DNA from: Hyphomicrobium facile
GTDB taxonomy: Bacteria; Pseudomonadota; Alphaproteobacteria; Rhizobiales; Hyphomicrobiaceae
DNA: 64,000 nucleotides
Direction of reading: 5' to 3'
Assembly: GCF_900116175.1 (NCBI RefSeq)
Contig: NZ_FPCH01000003.1
Location: 930,001-994,000 of the forward strand
The translations under genes were made by a program, and so were the position numbers. The notes under the pieces were generated by a model. It made no database searches and was not told the DNA's origin. It was given only the letters and a program-made list of their open reading frames with translations. This document shows positions 13,991-19,797 of the stretch, piece by piece; the first letter of the stretch is position 1; each line of letters opens with the position of its first letter.

Positions 13991-14617
13991 CTAGGCCGCC
14001 ATAAGGCCCGTTAGTAGGGATATGCCTGCAATTGCTCCGAGGCCGCCCGTAAGCCTATTCAAAAGGCTCGATTGCGCTGCGCCCACATGTTTGAAGCCGG
14101 CTCCGAGAGCAAGCCCAGAGGCGTGGAGCAGTGCCGTCGCGACAACGAATCCTGCAGCATAGGGAAGGAAGGCGAAGCCGAGGCCTACGCCCTCGTTGCC
14201 GTGCGCGTGACCATGGAAAAGCGCGAAGGTTCCGACAAGCGCCATCGCCGCAACGGTCGGCAGGCGCACGCCAAGAGCGATTGCCATGCTCATGACGACA
14301 ACTGAAAGACCGATGCCAGCCTCGACCATCGGCAGCGGCCACCCATAGTACCCCAACAGGCCGCCGAAGATCATTGTGCCGACAAATGCCAACGGTACGA
14401 GCCAAAACGCTCGTCCCCCAAGATTGGCGGCATACAGACCGACAGCCAGCATCGCGATCATGTGGTCGAGGCCGTTCATGGGATGCAGAAAGCCCTGACT
14501 GAACGTGTGGACCGCGCCGAGTCCGACATGAGCCGACGCCGGCGCAACTGCAGCCACCATCAAAATCGAGCCAGCGCCGACGGCTTTTAGAACGTGCTGC
14601 ACGCGTGAATGTCTCAT
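13991..14617 (-). CDS. hupE: HupE/UreJ-family metal permease
   Basis: A 208-residue membrane protein with a signal-like first segment (through PASAHVGLG) and about six further hydrophobic segments. It carries the family signature HPMNGLDHMIAMLAVGLYAA and a histidine cluster FHGHAHGNEG. HupE/UreJ proteins take up nickel for hydrogenase or urease. AGGAGG lies seven bases before ATG 14617 and overlaps the stop codon of the upstream ureohydrolase gene (AAATAGGAGG), so the two are translationally linked. No hydrogenase or urease gene is present, so the metal is most simply meant for the neighbouring hydrolase. Confidence 0.87.
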   Translation of the reverse strand: MRHSRVQHVLKAVGAGSILMVAAVAPASAHVGLGAVHTFSQGFLHPMNGLDHMIAMLAVGLYAANLGGRAFWLVPLAFVGTMIFGGLLGYYGWPLPMVEAGIGLSVVVMSMAIALGVRLPTVAAMALVGTFALFHGHAHGNEGVGLGFAFLPYAAGFVVATALLHASGLALGAGFKHVGAAQSSLLNRLTGGLGAIAGISLLTGLMAA

Positions 14618-14628
14618 CGTACGCCCTC

Positions 14629-15855
14629 CTATTTCATGACTTTGCTGCGATGGCCGAGCTTGCCGTTCGCCACCAGAGTTCCGAGCACATCGAGCACGAC
14701 GCGGCAGGCGAGCTGCGCCGTGTTGTCGTTGACGTCGTACGGCGGCGACACCTCGACGACTTCCATGCCGCAAAGGCCTTCCGCCGCGATGGTATGGATC
14801 ATCTCGAAAGCTTCGCGCGGCAGAAGTCCGCCGGGCTCGGGCGAACCGGTGCCGGGCGCAAACCCCGGATCGATCGAGTCGATATCGAACGACAGATAGA
14901 CCGCCTTGCAGCCTTCCCACGCCATCTCGAGCGCAATTTCGGCGGCCTTCTTCGGGCCGTAGTGCTGCACGTCATGCATCGTCAGCACGCTGGTGCCGCG
15001 ACGCTTGGCGACCGCCGTTCCCGGACGATTGCCGTACCAGCCGCCGATGCCGATCTGCACGAGATTTTTCGGGTGGCAGTTGGGCAAGCCGACATCGTGC
15101 ATGTGGCTATGATCGCGATGCGAGGCGTGCGTCCCCTCGTTCGTCGTCCAGAACCACGGCGTCGTGTGCATGCGCTCATCCATATCCTTCTCTTGGATAT
15201 CGATGTGCCGGTCGATGTGGATGATGCCGACATTGCCGTCGATGTGCGGAGCAATGCCGCGCACGTTGGGGAAGCCCAAGCTGTGATCACCGCCACAGAT
15301 GATCGGGAAAACGCCCGACGTGTAGATGTGCGACACGGCCTTGGTCACCTGGTCGAACGTCTTCTCGATGTTGCCCGGAATGACGAAGATGTCTCCCGCA
15401 TCACAAAGATCGAGCTCCTCATAGATATCCACGCCGCCATCGAACCAATAGCCGTCGTAGAGCGCCGAGATCCGGCGGACCGCTTGCGGCCCAAAGCGTG
15501 TGCCGGGCCGGTAGGTCGTCGCCGAGTCGAAGGGCGCGCCGACAAAGGCCGCCTCGAAGTTGCCGATCTTGCGGATGTCTTCGCAGTACGGCGCCTTCAT
15601 GAAGGTATTGATGCCGGCAAACGCCGGCTGATGACCCCGGCTGAACAACGAGATGTTGCGATCGATGACGGACGAGGCGGCTTCGAGCCCGTACTGCAGC
15701 GACCGGGCCGTTTCCTCGTCCTGCTTAGTCTGGGAAATACGAGACAACGTCTCCATGCTCTTAGCGCCGTGAGTATCTTCCCGTTTCACCCCATGTAGGT
15801 GATGTCTATGCTTGTGGTGGCCGGAACCATCCCCACTCTTCCTATCGTCAGACAT
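14629..15855 (-). CDS. Agmatinase-family ureohydrolase, candidate Ni-dependent guanidine hydrolase
   Basis: A 408-residue ureohydrolase. The dinuclear metal ligands are H191 (CGGDHS), D215, H217 and D219 (HIDRHID), and D324 and D326 (SFDIDSID). DRH in place of the usual DAH, the lid HTTPWFWTTN, LVQIGIGGW and PEPGGLLPRE recall the enzymes shown in cyanobacteria to be nickel-dependent guanidine hydrolases (Synechocystis Sll1077) rather than true agmatinases. Two histidine-rich stretches are unusual: residues 13-21 (HHKHRHHLH) and an apparent insertion at 243-261 with six histidines, just after the lid. AAGGGG precedes ATG 15855. HupE follows in the operon. Substrate (guanidine, agmatine or another guanidino compound) is inference. 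Confidence 0.85.
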   Translation of the reverse strand: MSDDRKSGDGSGHHKHRHHLHGVKREDTHGAKSMETLSRISQTKQDEETARSLQYGLEAASSVIDRNISLFSRGHQPAFAGINTFMKAPYCEDIRKIGNFEAAFVGAPFDSATTYRPGTRFGPQAVRRISALYDGYWFDGGVDIYEELDLCDAGDIFVIPGNIEKTFDQVTKAVSHIYTSGVFPIICGGDHSLGFPNVRGIAPHIDGNVGIIHIDRHIDIQEKDMDERMHTTPWFWTTNEGTHASHRDHSHMHDVGLPNCHPKNLVQIGIGGWYGNRPGTAVAKRRGTSVLTMHDVQHYGPKKAAEIALEMAWEGCKAVYLSFDIDSIDPGFAPGTGSPEPGGLLPREAFEMIHTIAAEGLCGMEVVEVSPPYDVNDNTAQLACRVVLDVLGTLVANGKLGHRSKVMK

Positions 15856-15908
15856 TTCGTATCCCCTTCGAAACAAGTCGGTGACGATGAGGATTCCGCA
15901 AATCGCGA

Positions 15909-15914
15909 ATTATA
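15909..15914 (-). promoter_or_regulatory. Candidate -10 box of the ureohydrolase promoter
   Basis: A perfect TATAAT on the minus strand, 53 bases before the ATG. No good -35 lies 17 bases upstream (TCGATT only), as is common for promoters that need an activator; the dyad at 15940-15958 sits 25-45 bases upstream of it. Confidence 0.5.
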
Positions 15915-15939
15915 AACACTCTCGAAATTTCAATCGATA

Positions 15940-15958
15940 GCATTGCATTTATCAATGC
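15940..15958. promoter_or_regulatory. Putative LysR-regulator operator upstream of the ureohydrolase
   Basis: The dyad GCATTGATAAATGCAATGC (minus strand) holds a T-N11-A LysR-type core. It lies 85 bases before the ureohydrolase start and just upstream of the TATAAT box, where a LysR activator would bind. Thirteen of 19 positions match the dyad at 17799-17817 in front of the permease gene. Confidence 0.55.
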
Positions 15959-15999
15959 TAGGAGGGCCGCAGCGCTCATATGCATCAACCGAAGTAGCA

Positions 16000-16028
16000 A
16001 GGTGCCACGGCTCCAGGCCGCGGCACCT
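16000..16028 (-). terminator. Hairpin after the APC permease gene
   Basis: AGGTGCCACGG at 16000-16010 pairs with CCGCGGCACCT at 16018-16028 with one mismatch and a 7-base loop. On the minus strand TTGCTACTT follows. It lies 25 bases past the permease stop and separates that transcript from the ureohydrolase promoter, so the two genes have separate promoters. Confidence 0.65.
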
Positions 16029-16052
16029 CCTCGTGTTCTGACTTACAGATCG

Positions 16053-17681
16053 TCAAGGCTGACTATACGTGGCCAGTAGGTGTCCGGCGTAGATCGTCAA
16101 ACCACCCGCAAGCAGCGTTATGTAGGGCAACAGGCCGGCACGGCGGGTTAAGGGCTTGCCTCCTTCCTCCAGGTCGTCTTGCATCCAACGTGGGAAGCTG
16201 CCCCCGTCCGTCACATAATGGCGGTAGGCGAAAATGGGGATGATACCAGCAACGATAATAAGACTGGTCAGCAGAACGCGCTGCCCCCAGAAGTCTGCGC
16301 CCCAACCCATGATGAGAAGATTGAGGAAGCCACATCCTGCACCTACGGCCAACAGCCACGCGGGCGCACGATACGGCCGCTCTCGATTCGGGCGATCGAT
16401 GCGATGAAGCCATCCAGCCTGCAGATTGAGGAACACGAAGACCATATAGGTCGTATTGGCGAGGACGATGAGAAAAACGTAGTCCGAGATCGACAGAAGC
16501 GCCGCATTGAACACGAGGTCTGTCCACATCGCAGCTACGGGCGCACCGTGACTATTCACCCGCGAGAGATACTTTGGCAGCCAACCATCGTGGGCACCTT
16601 GATAGAGCGTCCGTGACGAGCCGGCCATCGCCGTCATCACCACCAGACAGATCGATAATGTCAACGTTGCGATGACGATATTGCCCAGGATGGGTCCTGC
16701 ACCGATCATTTGGGTCATCACTTTGCCCACGCCGGTGCCATCGTAAATTCCTGGGTCGAGAAGACCGTTAAGGCCCAAATATCCTTGAAATGCGAAAGGG
16801 ACGAGCGTGTAGAACGCGATGCATAGCAAGCCAGAATACACCAGTGCCCGAACCGTGTCGTAACCCGGATTCTTGAACTCGCTCACATAACAGACTGCCG
16901 TCTCGAATGGGTAGGTTGACCACGCTGCCAACAAAAGGCAGGCCATCAGAGTCGTGATTCCAACCATGTCCCAGGCGCCATTCATTGGCTGTCCGGCCGC
17001 GTCCTGGATAAGCGGCACGAATGGCGTGAAGTTTTCCGAACGAATGTCTCCCGTCAGCAGCGGCACGACACCGATCAGAAGAAGCGGCAGCAGCACAGCG
17101 ATGGCGATAATCATCTGCACTCGCGCCGCTTTTAGAATTCCACGATGCTGGATCGCGAAAACCGTGAGCATCAACGCCAAGCCGAGGAAAAAAGTCGCGT
17201 TGAGTCGGACAACGACACCGTCTTTAATGAAGCCCAGATCGAACAATGTGATCTGCCAGGTTCTGATCAGAGAATCAGCGGGAAACAGCAGATTTAGGAC
17301 GTAGCCTGCAGCAAGTCCCGAACCGATCGCGAGAACGGGCGACCAAGAGAACCAGTTTGCCCAAACAGAAACTGGCCCCAGCATTTTGCCGTAGGGAACC
17401 CAGGCAATGGCACCGTAGACGGAGGCGCCGCCGGACTTTTTTGGGAAAAGGCCCGATATCTCGGCATACGTGAAACACTGAATAAAGCCGATGAGCATCG
17501 ACATCATCCATACGGCGGATGAGATATTGCCGGCGGCAGATGCAACAGCGCCGATAGAGAACAGCACTAGCACGGGCGTGCCGGACGCTATCCAAAACGC
17601 ATGCTTCCAATTCAAAGTGCGGCGCATCGTGCCCGTATATTCGGACACATCCGGTGCGGCCGTTAAAGCCATCTCCGACAT
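16053..17681 (-). CDS. APC-superfamily amino acid/amine permease
   Basis: A 542-residue membrane protein with about twelve hydrophobic segments. The N-terminal half has the APC pattern: FSIGAVASAAGNISSAVW in segment 1, FTYAEISGLFPKKSGGASVYG in segments 2-3, and GSSRTLYQGAHDGWLPKYLS in the middle loop. Such carriers take up amino acids, polyamines or related cations. ATG 17681 follows GGGGAGG. It sits between the LysR gene and the ureohydrolase and shares a candidate operator with the latter, so it may import that enzyme's guanidino substrate; this is inference. Confidence 0.85.
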   Translation of the reverse strand: MSEMALTAAPDVSEYTGTMRRTLNWKHAFWIASGTPVLVLFSIGAVASAAGNISSAVWMMSMLIGFIQCFTYAEISGLFPKKSGGASVYGAIAWVPYGKMLGPVSVWANWFSWSPVLAIGSGLAAGYVLNLLFPADSLIRTWQITLFDLGFIKDGVVVRLNATFFLGLALMLTVFAIQHRGILKAARVQMIIAIAVLLPLLLIGVVPLLTGDIRSENFTPFVPLIQDAAGQPMNGAWDMVGITTLMACLLLAAWSTYPFETAVCYVSEFKNPGYDTVRALVYSGLLCIAFYTLVPFAFQGYLGLNGLLDPGIYDGTGVGKVMTQMIGAGPILGNIVIATLTLSICLVVMTAMAGSSRTLYQGAHDGWLPKYLSRVNSHGAPVAAMWTDLVFNAALLSISDYVFLIVLANTTYMVFVFLNLQAGWLHRIDRPNRERPYRAPAWLLAVGAGCGFLNLLIMGWGADFWGQRVLLTSLIIVAGIIPIFAYRHYVTDGGSFPRWMQDDLEEGGKPLTRRAGLLPYITLLAGGLTIYAGHLLATYSQP

Positions 17682-17798
17682 CCCACCTCCCCATATGTTC
17701 TTTTTTTGCGGATCCGCACCTCGACACACAAGATGCAAAGACCCGCTATAGGAGATCATAGGGACGCGGATTAGAGACCTCCCCTAAAGCTATTTTAT

Positions 17799-17817
17799 GC
17801 ATTGACTAGGTCGATGC
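17799..17817. promoter_or_regulatory. Putative LysR-regulator operator upstream of the APC permease
   Basis: GCATTGACTAGGTCGATGC, a dyad with GCAT/ATGC ends and a T-N11-A core, 118 bases before the permease ATG and downstream of the LysR stop. It matches the ureohydrolase operator at 13 of 19 positions, including both flanks. Confidence 0.55.
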
Positions 17818-17883
17818 ATGTCCGGGAAGGCACGGGGAAGAGCGTGCGAACTTGAGTTCTATCGCAGGCTAGTAAGGCTGGGC

Positions 17884-18834
17884 TTACGAAGTCTCTGCCT
17901 TTTCGTCGGGCAAGATTTGTTCGGTGCGCTTGAGCCTCCGGCCCACTTCTTCCATGAAGATCTCGGTCACTAGCCGCTTCGGCGCATGCTTGTTTGAAAT
18001 CGCGTAGATATCACATCCAGTGCCCAACGATTTCGGAGTAAGGGGATGGAGCGTTCCCTTTTTGACGTCCACTGCAGCCATACGTTCAGGAAGCAGACAA
18101 ATTCCCAATCCGAGAACGGCGAGCCGCTTTGCCTCTTCCAGATTGGGCGTCGACGCTGCAATGCGTTTCCCAAGCCCATGACGTAATCGATAGTGAGCCA
18201 GTGTATCCGGCTCATCGGCTCCCGTTAAAATCAACGGCTCGTCCGACAAAGCCTCGACGGATCCAACAGAAGTTCCGAAGAGGTGATGGCGCTTCCCGCA
18301 GTACACCAAATGCACTTCACGCGTCAGAAACTCGTATCGCAGCTCTTTGTACTTCGTATGAACGGCAGTGATACCGACATCGATCTCGTTTCGAAGCACC
18401 GCCCGAGATATCGTTTCCCATGGAGCCACTTTAATCTGGAGTTCAACAAGTGGACATAGCGTGCTGTATGCAACCAGAAGCTTATCAAATTTCGCGTCGA
18501 TGAAGTTGCTAATGGTGCATAGCCGAAGTCGACCCCGAAGGTCCCTTGAAGCATTGTCGAGGTTGTCCGGAATGCGGTCAAACTTGGCGTAAACTTCGCT
18601 CACGCACTCGTACAGTATCCGTCCCTCGTCGGTTAGCTCGAAACCGGCCGGCCCGCGATGGCACAGTGTCTTGCCTAGTTGCTTTTCGAGTCTTTGGAGC
18701 GCCAGACTAAGTGTGGACTGCTTTCGCCATAAGACGTTTGCAGCGGACGACACGCCGTTCGCTCCGACGATGCCATAAAATATTTTGAGAAGGTTCCAAT
18801 CCAGTTCGAGGCAAAAATTTTGACGCGATTTCAT
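17884..18834 (-). CDS. LysR-family transcriptional regulator
   Basis: A 316-residue LysR protein. The N-terminal winged helix reads LLKIFYGIVGANGVSSAA then TLSLALQRLEKQLGKTLCHR, and the effector domain follows from about residue 95 (GRLRLCTISNFID). ATG 18834 has AGGAAG upstream; the open frame to 18864 has none. LysR regulators usually act on adjacent genes. The permease follows on the same strand and the ureohydrolase after it, and both carry a similar dyad, so this protein is the best candidate regulator of the cluster. The inducer is unknown. Confidence 0.85.
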   Translation of the reverse strand: MKSRQNFCLELDWNLLKIFYGIVGANGVSSAANVLWRKQSTLSLALQRLEKQLGKTLCHRGPAGFELTDEGRILYECVSEVYAKFDRIPDNLDNASRDLRGRLRLCTISNFIDAKFDKLLVAYSTLCPLVELQIKVAPWETISRAVLRNEIDVGITAVHTKYKELRYEFLTREVHLVYCGKRHHLFGTSVGSVEALSDEPLILTGADEPDTLAHYRLRHGLGKRIAASTPNLEEAKRLAVLGLGICLLPERMAAVDVKKGTLHPLTPKSLGTGCDIYAISNKHAPKRLVTEIFMEEVGRRLKRTEQILPDEKAETS

Positions 18835-19323
18835 GCTTGCTTCCTGCGATACCGCCGTCCGCATTCGTCCTGGAGAGATTTGTAGAGAGGCGCGCCGGCT
18901 AAATGTCCGATGACGGGAGCAACAAGGTTGGCCCCACGAAGGATGCGGAATTCCTGATCTGCTAAGCCGTAGTTTCGCAAACTAGCGGGCATCGTTTGCT
19001 CCCGCGATGAAACGGAAGCTTAGCCAAGCCGCTAATGCTGGAACGGGCGACACCACCATCTCCTATTTGAGATGGGGTCGTCCCCAGGGATCGTATGGGA
19101 ATGACGCTAGCCGTCTAGCGACGCAACTTTTCTAACAAGATCAGAGTAGTTGCGCAACCGGGGAGTCGTCACTGCCAAACCGCGCGCAGCATGCGTGGAA
19201 CCATGAAGTTACCGGCAGGTGATGGGCTTCATGACGACGACGCGGAACGTGTTGACGGACTCGATCAACCACGGGCGCATGCCGGTACTCCTGACGGAGG
19301 AAGCTACTCCGGTCCAAGTGTCG
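18835..19323. other. Intergenic region, no gene recognised
   Basis: No reading frame in this 489-base stretch looks like a gene. A perfect 7-bp hairpin lies at 19056-19075 (CCATCTC / GAGATGG), and a short inverted repeat CGCTAG / CTAGCG lies near 19104-19119. Neither has a T-tract. It contains the LysR promoter side and the downstream flank of the YbaK-type gene. Confidence 0.5.
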
Positions 19324-19797
19324 TCAATGGTTGCGCGCGCCAATGTGGGCATGCGGCACGTCAGCCATCAACCGGTGAAACTCGCGGCCTTTCAAACGCA
19401 CCAGAGTGCGATGGTCGCCGCTCTCGAAGTAAATATCATCGAACCCTTCGAGGCTGTCATCCATCACGGCCTGCAGTCCGTAGGCGCCCGCGACCGGTGG
19501 GATAGCGCCAAGTGCGCAATCCGCGAATACAGTTGCGACCTCATCTTCGCTCGCCAAGCCTACCGGCTGCTGCAACCACATGCCGAGCGCGTCGAGACTC
19601 ACGTGGCAGGAGGTCGGAATGATCGCTAAGACGTAGCCGTCCTTACGACGTATAAGTACGCCTTTGGCGAGATTGTCTTCTGCGATGCCGCCGGCTTCGG
19701 CCGTCGCTGAAGAACGCATCGTAGGCTCGTGTGTCACCACGTCATAACGGACGTCACGGCCCTCAAGATACTTTTGGAGTGACGGTGCGATACTCAA
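19324..19797 (-). CDS. YbaK/ProX-type aminoacyl-tRNA deacylase-like protein
   Basis: A 157-residue single-domain YbaK/EbsC-fold protein. LAKGVLIRRKDGYVLAIIP holds the conserved lysine region, and GAIPPVAGAYGLQAVMDDSL matches the GxxPP segment of the family, which hydrolyses mischarged tRNAs such as Ala-tRNA(Pro) or Cys-tRNA(Pro). No ATG is available; TTG 19797 is chosen because GAGG lies six bases upstream. It stands alone between non-coding stretches, with no proline-tRNA ligase nearby, so the exact tRNA substrate is unknown. Confidence 0.78.
   Translation of the reverse strand: MSIAPSLQKYLEGRDVRYDVVTHEPTMRSSATAEAGGIAEDNLAKGVLIRRKDGYVLAIIPTSCHVSLDALGMWLQQPVGLASEDEVATVFADCALGAIPPVAGAYGLQAVMDDSLEGFDDIYFESGDHRTLVRLKGREFHRLMADVPHAHIGARNH

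Follow-up and report, generated by a model that had tools for sequence, protein, structure and literature searches.

What is the substrate of a ureohydrolase that appears to descend from the nickel-dependent guanidinases and lacks the residue tied to their specificity? The question is raised by a group of four genes in Hyphomicrobium facile (assembly GCF_900116175.1), located within a 64,000-nucleotide stretch of contig NZ_FPCH01000003.1 (positions 930,001 to 994,000 of the forward strand; hereafter the window, to which all coordinates given without a contig or locus refer). The genes code for a LysR-type regulator (17884-18834), an APC-superfamily permease (16053-17681), a ureohydrolase of 408 amino acids from the lineage of the guanidinase GdmH (14629-15855) and a HupE/UreJ permease (13991-14617). 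All four open reading frames (ORFs) are open and lie on the minus strand, at the places given in a preliminary description of this DNA, in which the group was taken for an inducible unit for uptake and hydrolysis of guanidine, or of a guanidino-compound. We give an even chance to the reading that it is a LysR-controlled unit for an N-methylated guanidine, most likely methylguanidine. Substrate, nickel use, transport and the direction of all regulation are predicted here from what was read directly in the sequence, namely gene content, clade, residue change, operators, riboswitch match and co-occurrence.

The ureohydrolase was compared with the sequences in the PDB. The nearest were the guanidinases of Nitrospira inopinata (9fek) and Synechocystis (7esr), at 438 bits each, and the enzyme is 58% identical to the characterised guanidinases over about 318 aligned residues; the next PDB sequence, a guanidinobutyrase, scored 161 bits, and the best agmatinase-named entry outside the guanidinases 113 bits. 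The alignment confirmed six metal ligands, as expected from the preliminary description, and the equivalents of Thr97/105, His222 and the Glu of guanidinase are kept. Ser338 (codon 14842-14844, minus strand) stands in place of the tryptophan linked to guanidine specificity (Synechocystis Trp305, N. inopinata Trp313), and the guanidinase definition published with a comammox study requires that tryptophan (PMC11410670). Threonine is found in the same position in the guanidinobutyrase 3nio and in a paralog on contig C2. The enzyme is probably a Ser-type offshoot of the nickel-dependent guanidinases, without the residue tied to plain guanidine. An AlphaFold model of the enzyme (7 sequences) reached a mean pLDDT (predicted local distance difference test) of 34.5 and was not used.

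A homolog search found a close homolog in 45 of 397 genomes of the order. Besides the source genome, 44 genomes were matched and 40 neighbourhoods were examined (without G232, G214, G031 and G072), 35 of them Trp-type and 5 Ser/Thr-type; in the order sample the Trp305 position holds Ser or Thr at 7/7 clade loci and Trp at 35/35 others. A collection scan, from which the best 80 of 86 loci were named and 75 of the 80 were placed in a tree, gave nearest named relatives that are mostly Hyphomicrobium. In the tree of 117 rows, a quick build with Shimodaira-Hasegawa-like approximate likelihood-ratio (SH-aLRT) support, no bootstrap, long outgroup branches and no agmatinase row, the Ser/Thr type forms one clade of 40 rows (support 99) nested in the Trp-type enzymes, and Trp is present in 72 of the 74 other guanidinase-lineage rows. 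Outside the main clade, a separate loss of Trp (to Thr) was seen in L166 and L169 (Bacillus sp. MUM 116 and Paenibacillus sp. Soil787). A His-rich insertion, HRDHSHMHDV, follows the ERMHT motif of the window enzyme (residues 246-255; 15091-15120, minus strand) and is specific to the clade: H[ST]HMHD occurs in 36 of the 37 inner-clade rows (L137 is the exception), in none of the outer rows L158-L160 and in none of the Trp-type rows, and the exact DHSHMHD in 24/40 clade rows versus 0/72 Trp-type rows. Further differences, for example Tyr274-Gly275, are fixed in the inner 37 rows. Among the clade members are Hyphomicrobium, Methyloceanibacter, Mycoplana, Aminobacter and Arthrobacter sp. MA-N2, which are methylotrophs or methylamine users.

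Neighbourhoods of 45 Ser/Thr-type and 70 Trp-type loci were then compared. Of the 80 named loci 78 were typed, L189 and L198 being left out of these counts; the partial loci L174, L200 and L201 were placed in the Ser/Thr group by hand, L046-L050 were dropped (same places as L128, L131, L138, L147 and L182), and L174 and L151 come from one assembly, judging by names. Unbiased clustering of neighbours was noisy (antisense ORFs) and directed counts were used instead. The loci are mutually related and come from two samplings with unequal flanks, so all p-values are descriptive.

A guanidine-I riboswitch lies at most 5 kb upstream, on the same strand, in 34 of the 35 Trp-type genomes of the order (coordinate comparison), and on another contig in the remaining one (G215). 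Rfam searches found none near the 7 Ser/Thr loci of the order sample: there was no match in the genomes G140, G079, G038 and G081, and in the source genome (G000) and G368 the guanidine-I riboswitch is on a contig other than that of the Ser/Thr locus. The genome searches covered more than 40 genomes each, with stricter filters. Nine named Ser/Thr loci searched against Rfam gave no guanidine-I match and one guanidine-II match. A related LysR gene stands near 19/45 Ser/Thr-type loci versus 0/70 Trp-type loci; the corresponding counts are 7 versus 0 for an EamA transporter, 5 versus 0 for folD, 3 versus 0 for ftfL (formate-tetrahydrofolate ligase) and 13 versus 3 for any of nine one-carbon or glutamine-synthetase queries. 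At L050/L111 a sarcosine-oxidase-like set, glutamate-synthase-like parts and a type III glutamine synthetase (657 bits) fall within about 11 kb; in our reading, which presumes the gene order of that pathway, they constitute the N-methylglutamate route for methylamine. A gmaS-like gene was found in 34 of 38 clade genomes (searched without L137), 23 of 35 Trp-type genomes and 104 of 297 genomes of the order (clade versus Trp-type, p 0.02; clade versus order, p 8e-11); being common in the order, gmaS was not accepted as proof of the substrate and counts as support only.

The regulator contains both an HTH_1 and a LysR_substrate domain (Pfam). Two putative operators were found, TGCAT-N11-ATGCA at 17798-17818, about 117 nucleotides before the APC start, and AGCAT-N11-ATGCT at 15939-15959, about 84 nucleotides before the start of the gdmH-like gene. 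They are the only matches of the pattern in the window (0.24 expected), and 1 of 100 shuffles had as many. The same kind of operator precedes the APC gene of Hyphomicrobium zavarzinii, the gdmH-like gene in L131, and the ABC transporter genes of L126, L127 and a second gdmH-hupE copy on contig C5 of the source genome; near matches were seen before the ABC genes of L129 and the APC gene of Aminobacter ciceronei. A looser pattern gave 31 matches in the Ser/Thr loci (1.42 Mb of strand) versus 8 in the Trp-type loci (2.34 Mb), counts in which overlapping or palindromic sites were scored repeatedly and which include several sites not before any of these genes. With an operator that recurs in this way, inducible uptake under LysR control, as first proposed, is plausible. 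The proposed gene set also stands; its arrangement as a single four-gene operon behind one riboswitch is doubtful, because an operator-like site (15939-15959) precedes the gdmH-hupE pair itself.

The riboswitch in question is a guanidine-II (mini-ykkC) aptamer at 19073-19122 on the minus strand, with two hairpins carrying ACGG and ACGA loops (Rfam RF01068; 32.5 bits against a gathering score of 32; genome-wide E 1.9e-4). The preliminary description mentions neither this element nor the two operators nor the Trp-to-Ser change. The aptamer is followed directly by a leader ORF of 25 amino acids (18982-19059) and then by a truncated ORF of 53 amino acids (18831-18992; profile match) whose end overlaps the LysR start in ATGA, both on the minus strand, so that the order of transcription is riboswitch, leader ORF, truncated ORF, LysR, APC, ureohydrolase, hupE. 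The truncated ORF is a relative of a small protein encoded behind guanidine-II riboswitches in L129 and L113 (27.6 bits, E 3e-6), and a 23-amino-acid leader is also present 3' of the riboswitch in L113. Members of the small-protein family were located at L129:14186-14476, L113:2020-2400, L005:8124-8663 and window 18831-18992; that of the C5 copy has a LysR-operator-like site in place of the riboswitch. In the predicted fold (z -3.3) the 3' strand of the second hairpin is paired with the leader ORF's ribosome site and ATG. Modelling did not bear out a simple folding switch: when that hairpin was imposed, all three sequences folded still had a partly paired ribosome site, and ligand-triggered release is therefore taken from the published class. 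Control of LysR by the riboswitch is put forward as something that may occur, and as a proposal only, because the element serves the small protein in L129 and L113, that gene is truncated in the window and the folding model shows no release.

The guanidine-II riboswitch of Vreelandella boliviensis binds methylguanidine with a dissociation constant of 83 µM and guanidine with one of 93 µM, and N,N-dimethylguanidine was not among its ligands; the guanidine-I riboswitch of the same organism showed no methylguanidine binding in the range tested (PMC12508155). Methylguanidine has been seen bound in guanidine-II crystals (PMC5486947). On these preferences, a Trp-type enzyme with guanidine-I would make a guanidine system, and a Trp-less enzyme with guanidine-II a methylguanidine system. 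As proof of a guanidine substrate the window riboswitch was set aside, since methylguanidine is a ligand of its class too and the small gene that follows is truncated. Elsewhere in the source genome, on contig C1 at 233379 and 236400 (L112), guanidine-I and guanidine-II riboswitches accompany DUF1989 and carboxylase-like genes, a set that probably represents a guanidine carboxylase route.

In the mechanism that we propose, the APC carrier would import the methylguanidine cation and the ureohydrolase would split it into urea and methylamine. The nickel of the enzyme would enter through HupE and may be held by its His-rich N-terminal tail, while the urease encoded on contig C4 would use the urea and methylamine and tetrahydrofolate one-carbon routes would use the methylamine. 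LysR would act at the two operators, before the APC gene and before gdmH-hupE, and the guanidine-II riboswitch may raise LysR synthesis by translational coupling with the small ORFs. A precedent is DmgH of Aminobacter and Hyphomicrobium, which converts dimethylguanidine into urea and dimethylamine (PMC11399263).

Several results weigh against methylguanidine as the substrate. Methylguanidine yielded no detectable urea with the comammox guanidinase (PMC11410670) and was not split by the metformin hydrolases tested (PMC11399263), so that a gain of this activity has to be assumed from the residue change and the insertion. One-carbon neighbours are sparse: for 32 of the 45 Ser/Thr loci no match to any of the nine queries was within reach, single genes are few (Ser/Thr versus Trp: sox 1 versus 0, glxBC 2 versus 0, gmaS-like 5 versus 3), as are the ftfL neighbours (3/45), and the window locus has no one-carbon gene apart from a permease of the trimethylamine N-oxide (TMAO) type, which in G177 occurs without the hydrolase. 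The gmaS gene separates clade from Trp-type genomes weakly (p 0.02, with relatives that are not independent); one of the 34 clade matches has 43% identity and three are partial, and in the clade genomes L159 and L160 (Arthrobacter, Pseudarthrobacter) neither a gmaS-like gene nor, in their enzymes, the HSHMHD insertion was found. Type III glutamine synthetase, a weak one-carbon mark for this reason, also adjoins the Trp-type loci L178 and L180, and an APC permease of another type adjoins the Trp-type loci L165, L171, L172 and L205. The riboswitch match, finally, is only 0.5 bits above its gathering score, its class binds guanidine too (PMC12508155), and both the truncation behind it and the forced-hairpin folds count on the same side.

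Three other substrates or substrate groups were considered. Guanidine itself would be split if Trp305 had been lost without a change of substrate and the APC carrier imported guanidine, as proposed for comammox Nitrospira. The GdmH lineage, the retained Thr97 and His222 equivalents and the binding of guanidine by guanidine-II riboswitches fit this, as does the comammox guanidinase, which is also paired with an APC permease, with no nickel chaperones found nearby (PMC11410670). However, the tryptophan required by the published definition (PMC11410670) is absent, 0/7 clade loci have a guanidine-I riboswitch, contig C1 already supplies the genome with DUF1989 and carboxylase-like genes that follow guanidine-I and guanidine-II riboswitches, and part of the clade has one-carbon neighbours; hydrolysis of plain guanidine is rather unlikely on this evidence. 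Of the preliminary description, the GdmH-like lineage is upheld (438 versus 161 bits, 58% identity), guanidine as the substrate is not, given the missing tryptophan and guanidine-I riboswitches and the N-methyl-type neighbours in part of the clade, and its wider wording, a guanidino-compound, is the part of the substrate claim that survives. Methylguanidine is the more likely of the two.

Another guanidino substrate (N,N-dimethylguanidine, a creatine-like compound or guanidinoacetate, taurocyamine or hydroxyguanidine) is likewise rather unlikely. In its favour, threonine in place of Trp is the state of 3nio and the C2 paralog, the sarcosine-oxidase-like genes near L050 (soxA model, 1334 bits) and, by our own reading, near L048 and L049 would suit a creatine-like substrate giving sarcosine, and the substrate-binding protein encoded with the second copy has a likeness, below cut-off, to sulfonate binders. 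Against it, methylamine is the better fit for the type III glutamine synthetase and glutamate-synthase-like genes near L050, and dimethylguanidine, besides not being a guanidine-II ligand, has its own enzyme in DmgH (PMC12508155, PMC11399263). That the enzyme is a plain Mn-dependent agmatinase or guanidinobutyrase with hupE beside it by coincidence is very improbable. The NCBIfam agmatinase models do match, but TIGR01230 and PRK02190 stay below their curated cut-offs, like all NCBIfam matches of the ureohydrolase (153 versus 174.3 bits; 196 versus 302 bits), and guanidinobutyrase (161 bits) and the agmatinase-named PDB entry (113 bits) fall far behind the guanidinases (438 bits); on these cut-offs and scores, the tree having no agmatinase row, agmatinase membership was rejected. 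Moreover, hupE or another candidate nickel permease is near 18/45 Ser/Thr-type and 11/70 Trp-type loci.

The HupE protein matches PF04955 (HupE_UreJ) with 168 bits against a cut-off of 23 and has HX5DH and FHGHAHGNE motifs, which we take to be marks of the family. As described earlier, no urease is encoded in the window, the urease alpha gene being on contig C4; hydrogenase genes were not searched for. A HypA gene was not found in the source genome and was found in 12 of 41 genomes searched; HypB was not searched for. Since the genome has urease and no HypA, and hupE lies directly downstream of the enzyme gene, the earlier suggestion of nickel supply through HupE rather than HypAB is plausible, and supply by HypAB was dropped, with that same limit for HypB and hydrogenase genes. 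A hupE neighbour is not special to the window locus, being present near 12/45 Ser/Thr and 12/70 Trp-type loci. The Synechocystis guanidinase is reported to need two nickel accessory proteins (PMC12930504).

The N-terminal tail of the window enzyme is His-rich (residues 13-21; 15793-15819, minus strand), as in the enzymes of the C5 copy, G368, G140 and several named relatives, and may hold nickel, given that the genome has no HypA. A separate His-rich protein stands near 0/45 Ser/Thr loci versus 24/70 Trp-type loci. It is small (150-180 amino acids, about 9-16% His), directly follows the Trp-type gdmH (e.g. L051:9473-10009) and is often followed by hupE; two such proteins were tested and gave no Pfam match. 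It is a candidate nickel carrier for guanidinase, and we suggest that tail and separate protein may both store nickel. At L048:2494-3372 a membrane protein without Pfam match was found that by eye resembles HoxN/NicO-type nickel permeases, and its homologs are near 6/45 Ser/Thr loci versus 0/70 others.

That the gene group is more than chance follows from its second copy and its recurrence. LysR, APC, gdmH-like and hupE genes occur together in A. ciceronei and are divergently arranged in H. zavarzinii, and the C5 copy of gdmH-hupE has 91.8% DNA identity over 1663 positions, the two enzyme genes differing by 42 synonymous versus 1 non-synonymous codons (389 compared). The gene group is real and conserved and belongs to the guanidinase lineage. 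The C5 copy stands behind an ABC transporter and a related LysR gene, with ftfL (934 bits versus a cut-off of 652) and folD, the latter named from its sequence, upstream. The stretch of high identity (window 14123-15783 versus L003:1273-2933) spans the enzyme core and part of hupE; the N-terminal tail of the enzyme and the outer parts lie outside it, a pattern as after gene conversion between copies. An arginase-family paralog with an altered metal motif, FDANMD, was found in the source genome (4.43 Mb, 5 contigs) at G000:C1:136375-137199 (L004/L007), next to a NitT/TauT-like transporter and a nitrilase-like gene, both named by eye.

Gene starts in the group were picked from ribosome sites. 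The LysR ORF, begun at MKSRQ, is open to 18864 and the APC ORF to 17759; the TAGGAGG ribosome site of hupE shares bases with the ureohydrolase stop codon, TAG, as noted before. Pfam scores were 252 bits for Arginase, 218 for AA_permease_2 and 97 for LysR_substrate. The APC permease matches NCBIfam NF053774 ('TMAO permease') with 844 bits (cut-off 690), a label that also passes paralogs about 50-60% identical. Contig C4 (L221, stretch 104000-122000) likewise has a TMAO-type permease gene, accompanied by genes for a type III glutamine synthetase and for a member of the creatininase family that scored under the creatininase cut-off. A gene with an aminoacyl-tRNA editing domain (19324-19797) lies on the same strand as the window riboswitch, immediately upstream of it. 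Genes for a metallophosphoesterase and for another type of APC permease, frequently joined by a small nucleotidyltransferase-like gene, adjoin the enzyme in distant phyla (Trp-type and Ser/Thr-type; L165, L171, L172, L205 and L131, L134, L135, L136, L182); apart from APC these names were assigned by eye.

Compared with known systems, the window enzyme shares the Arginase family, 58% identity, the metal ligands and the Thr97, His222 and Glu equivalents with GdmH of Synechocystis (Sll1077; 7esr/7oi1) and N. inopinata (9fek), and differs in Ser338, the His-rich tail and the HSHMHD insertion; its locus has LysR instead of a guanidine-I riboswitch, in a genome in which no HypA was found. The DmgH/MefH enzymes of Aminobacter, Hyphomicrobium and Pseudomonas are nickel-dependent ureohydrolases, act on methylated guanidines (both properties being predicted for the window enzyme) in the same genera, and have HupE in the metformin operon and one-carbon use of the amine (PMC11399263), but are two-gene heteromers, encoded by tandem alpha and beta genes, with HypAB, in contrast to a single ureohydrolase gene beside hupE in a genome without HypA (HypB not searched for). 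The methylguanidine hydroxylase and lyase MgdH-MgdL of V. boliviensis share methylguanidine use, predicted here, and a guanidine-II riboswitch, yet are other enzymes and demethylate oxidatively to guanidine and formaldehyde (PMC12508155). As a predicted nickel transporter, the window HupE agrees with HupE/UreJ permeases in Pfam match and motifs and differs in its apparent client, a ureohydrolase in place of hydrogenase or urease.

The reaction predicted for the window enzyme, methylguanidine to methylamine and urea, is that of methylguanidinase (EC 3.5.3.16). This activity has been known since about 1980, the enzyme was reportedly purified from Alcaligenes sp. N-42, and we know of no sequence for it; a literature search found no report of a sequenced methylguanidine hydrolase. 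EC 3.5.3.16 is named in a legend of PMC11764249. Somewhat short of an even chance, the Ser/Thr clade as a whole may be the missing gene family for hydrolytic methylguanidine use: a nickel methylguanidinase feeding urea and methylamine to methylotrophs, with a new LysR and operator, a regulator captured in the window by a methylguanidine-sensing guanidine-II riboswitch, and a His-rich nickel store replacing HypAB. If this is true, a gene would be assigned to an activity so far without known sequence and the role of the Trp-less guanidinase relatives would be explained. The easily testable relay from riboswitch to LysR would be a further consequence, and the system offers a test of nickel delivery to a ureohydrolase without HypA. 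Abiotic formation of methylguanidine from creatinine has been reported (PMC12508155), and a route for breaking it down therefore matters for waste water; the gene group would show how methylotrophs live on methylated guanidines.

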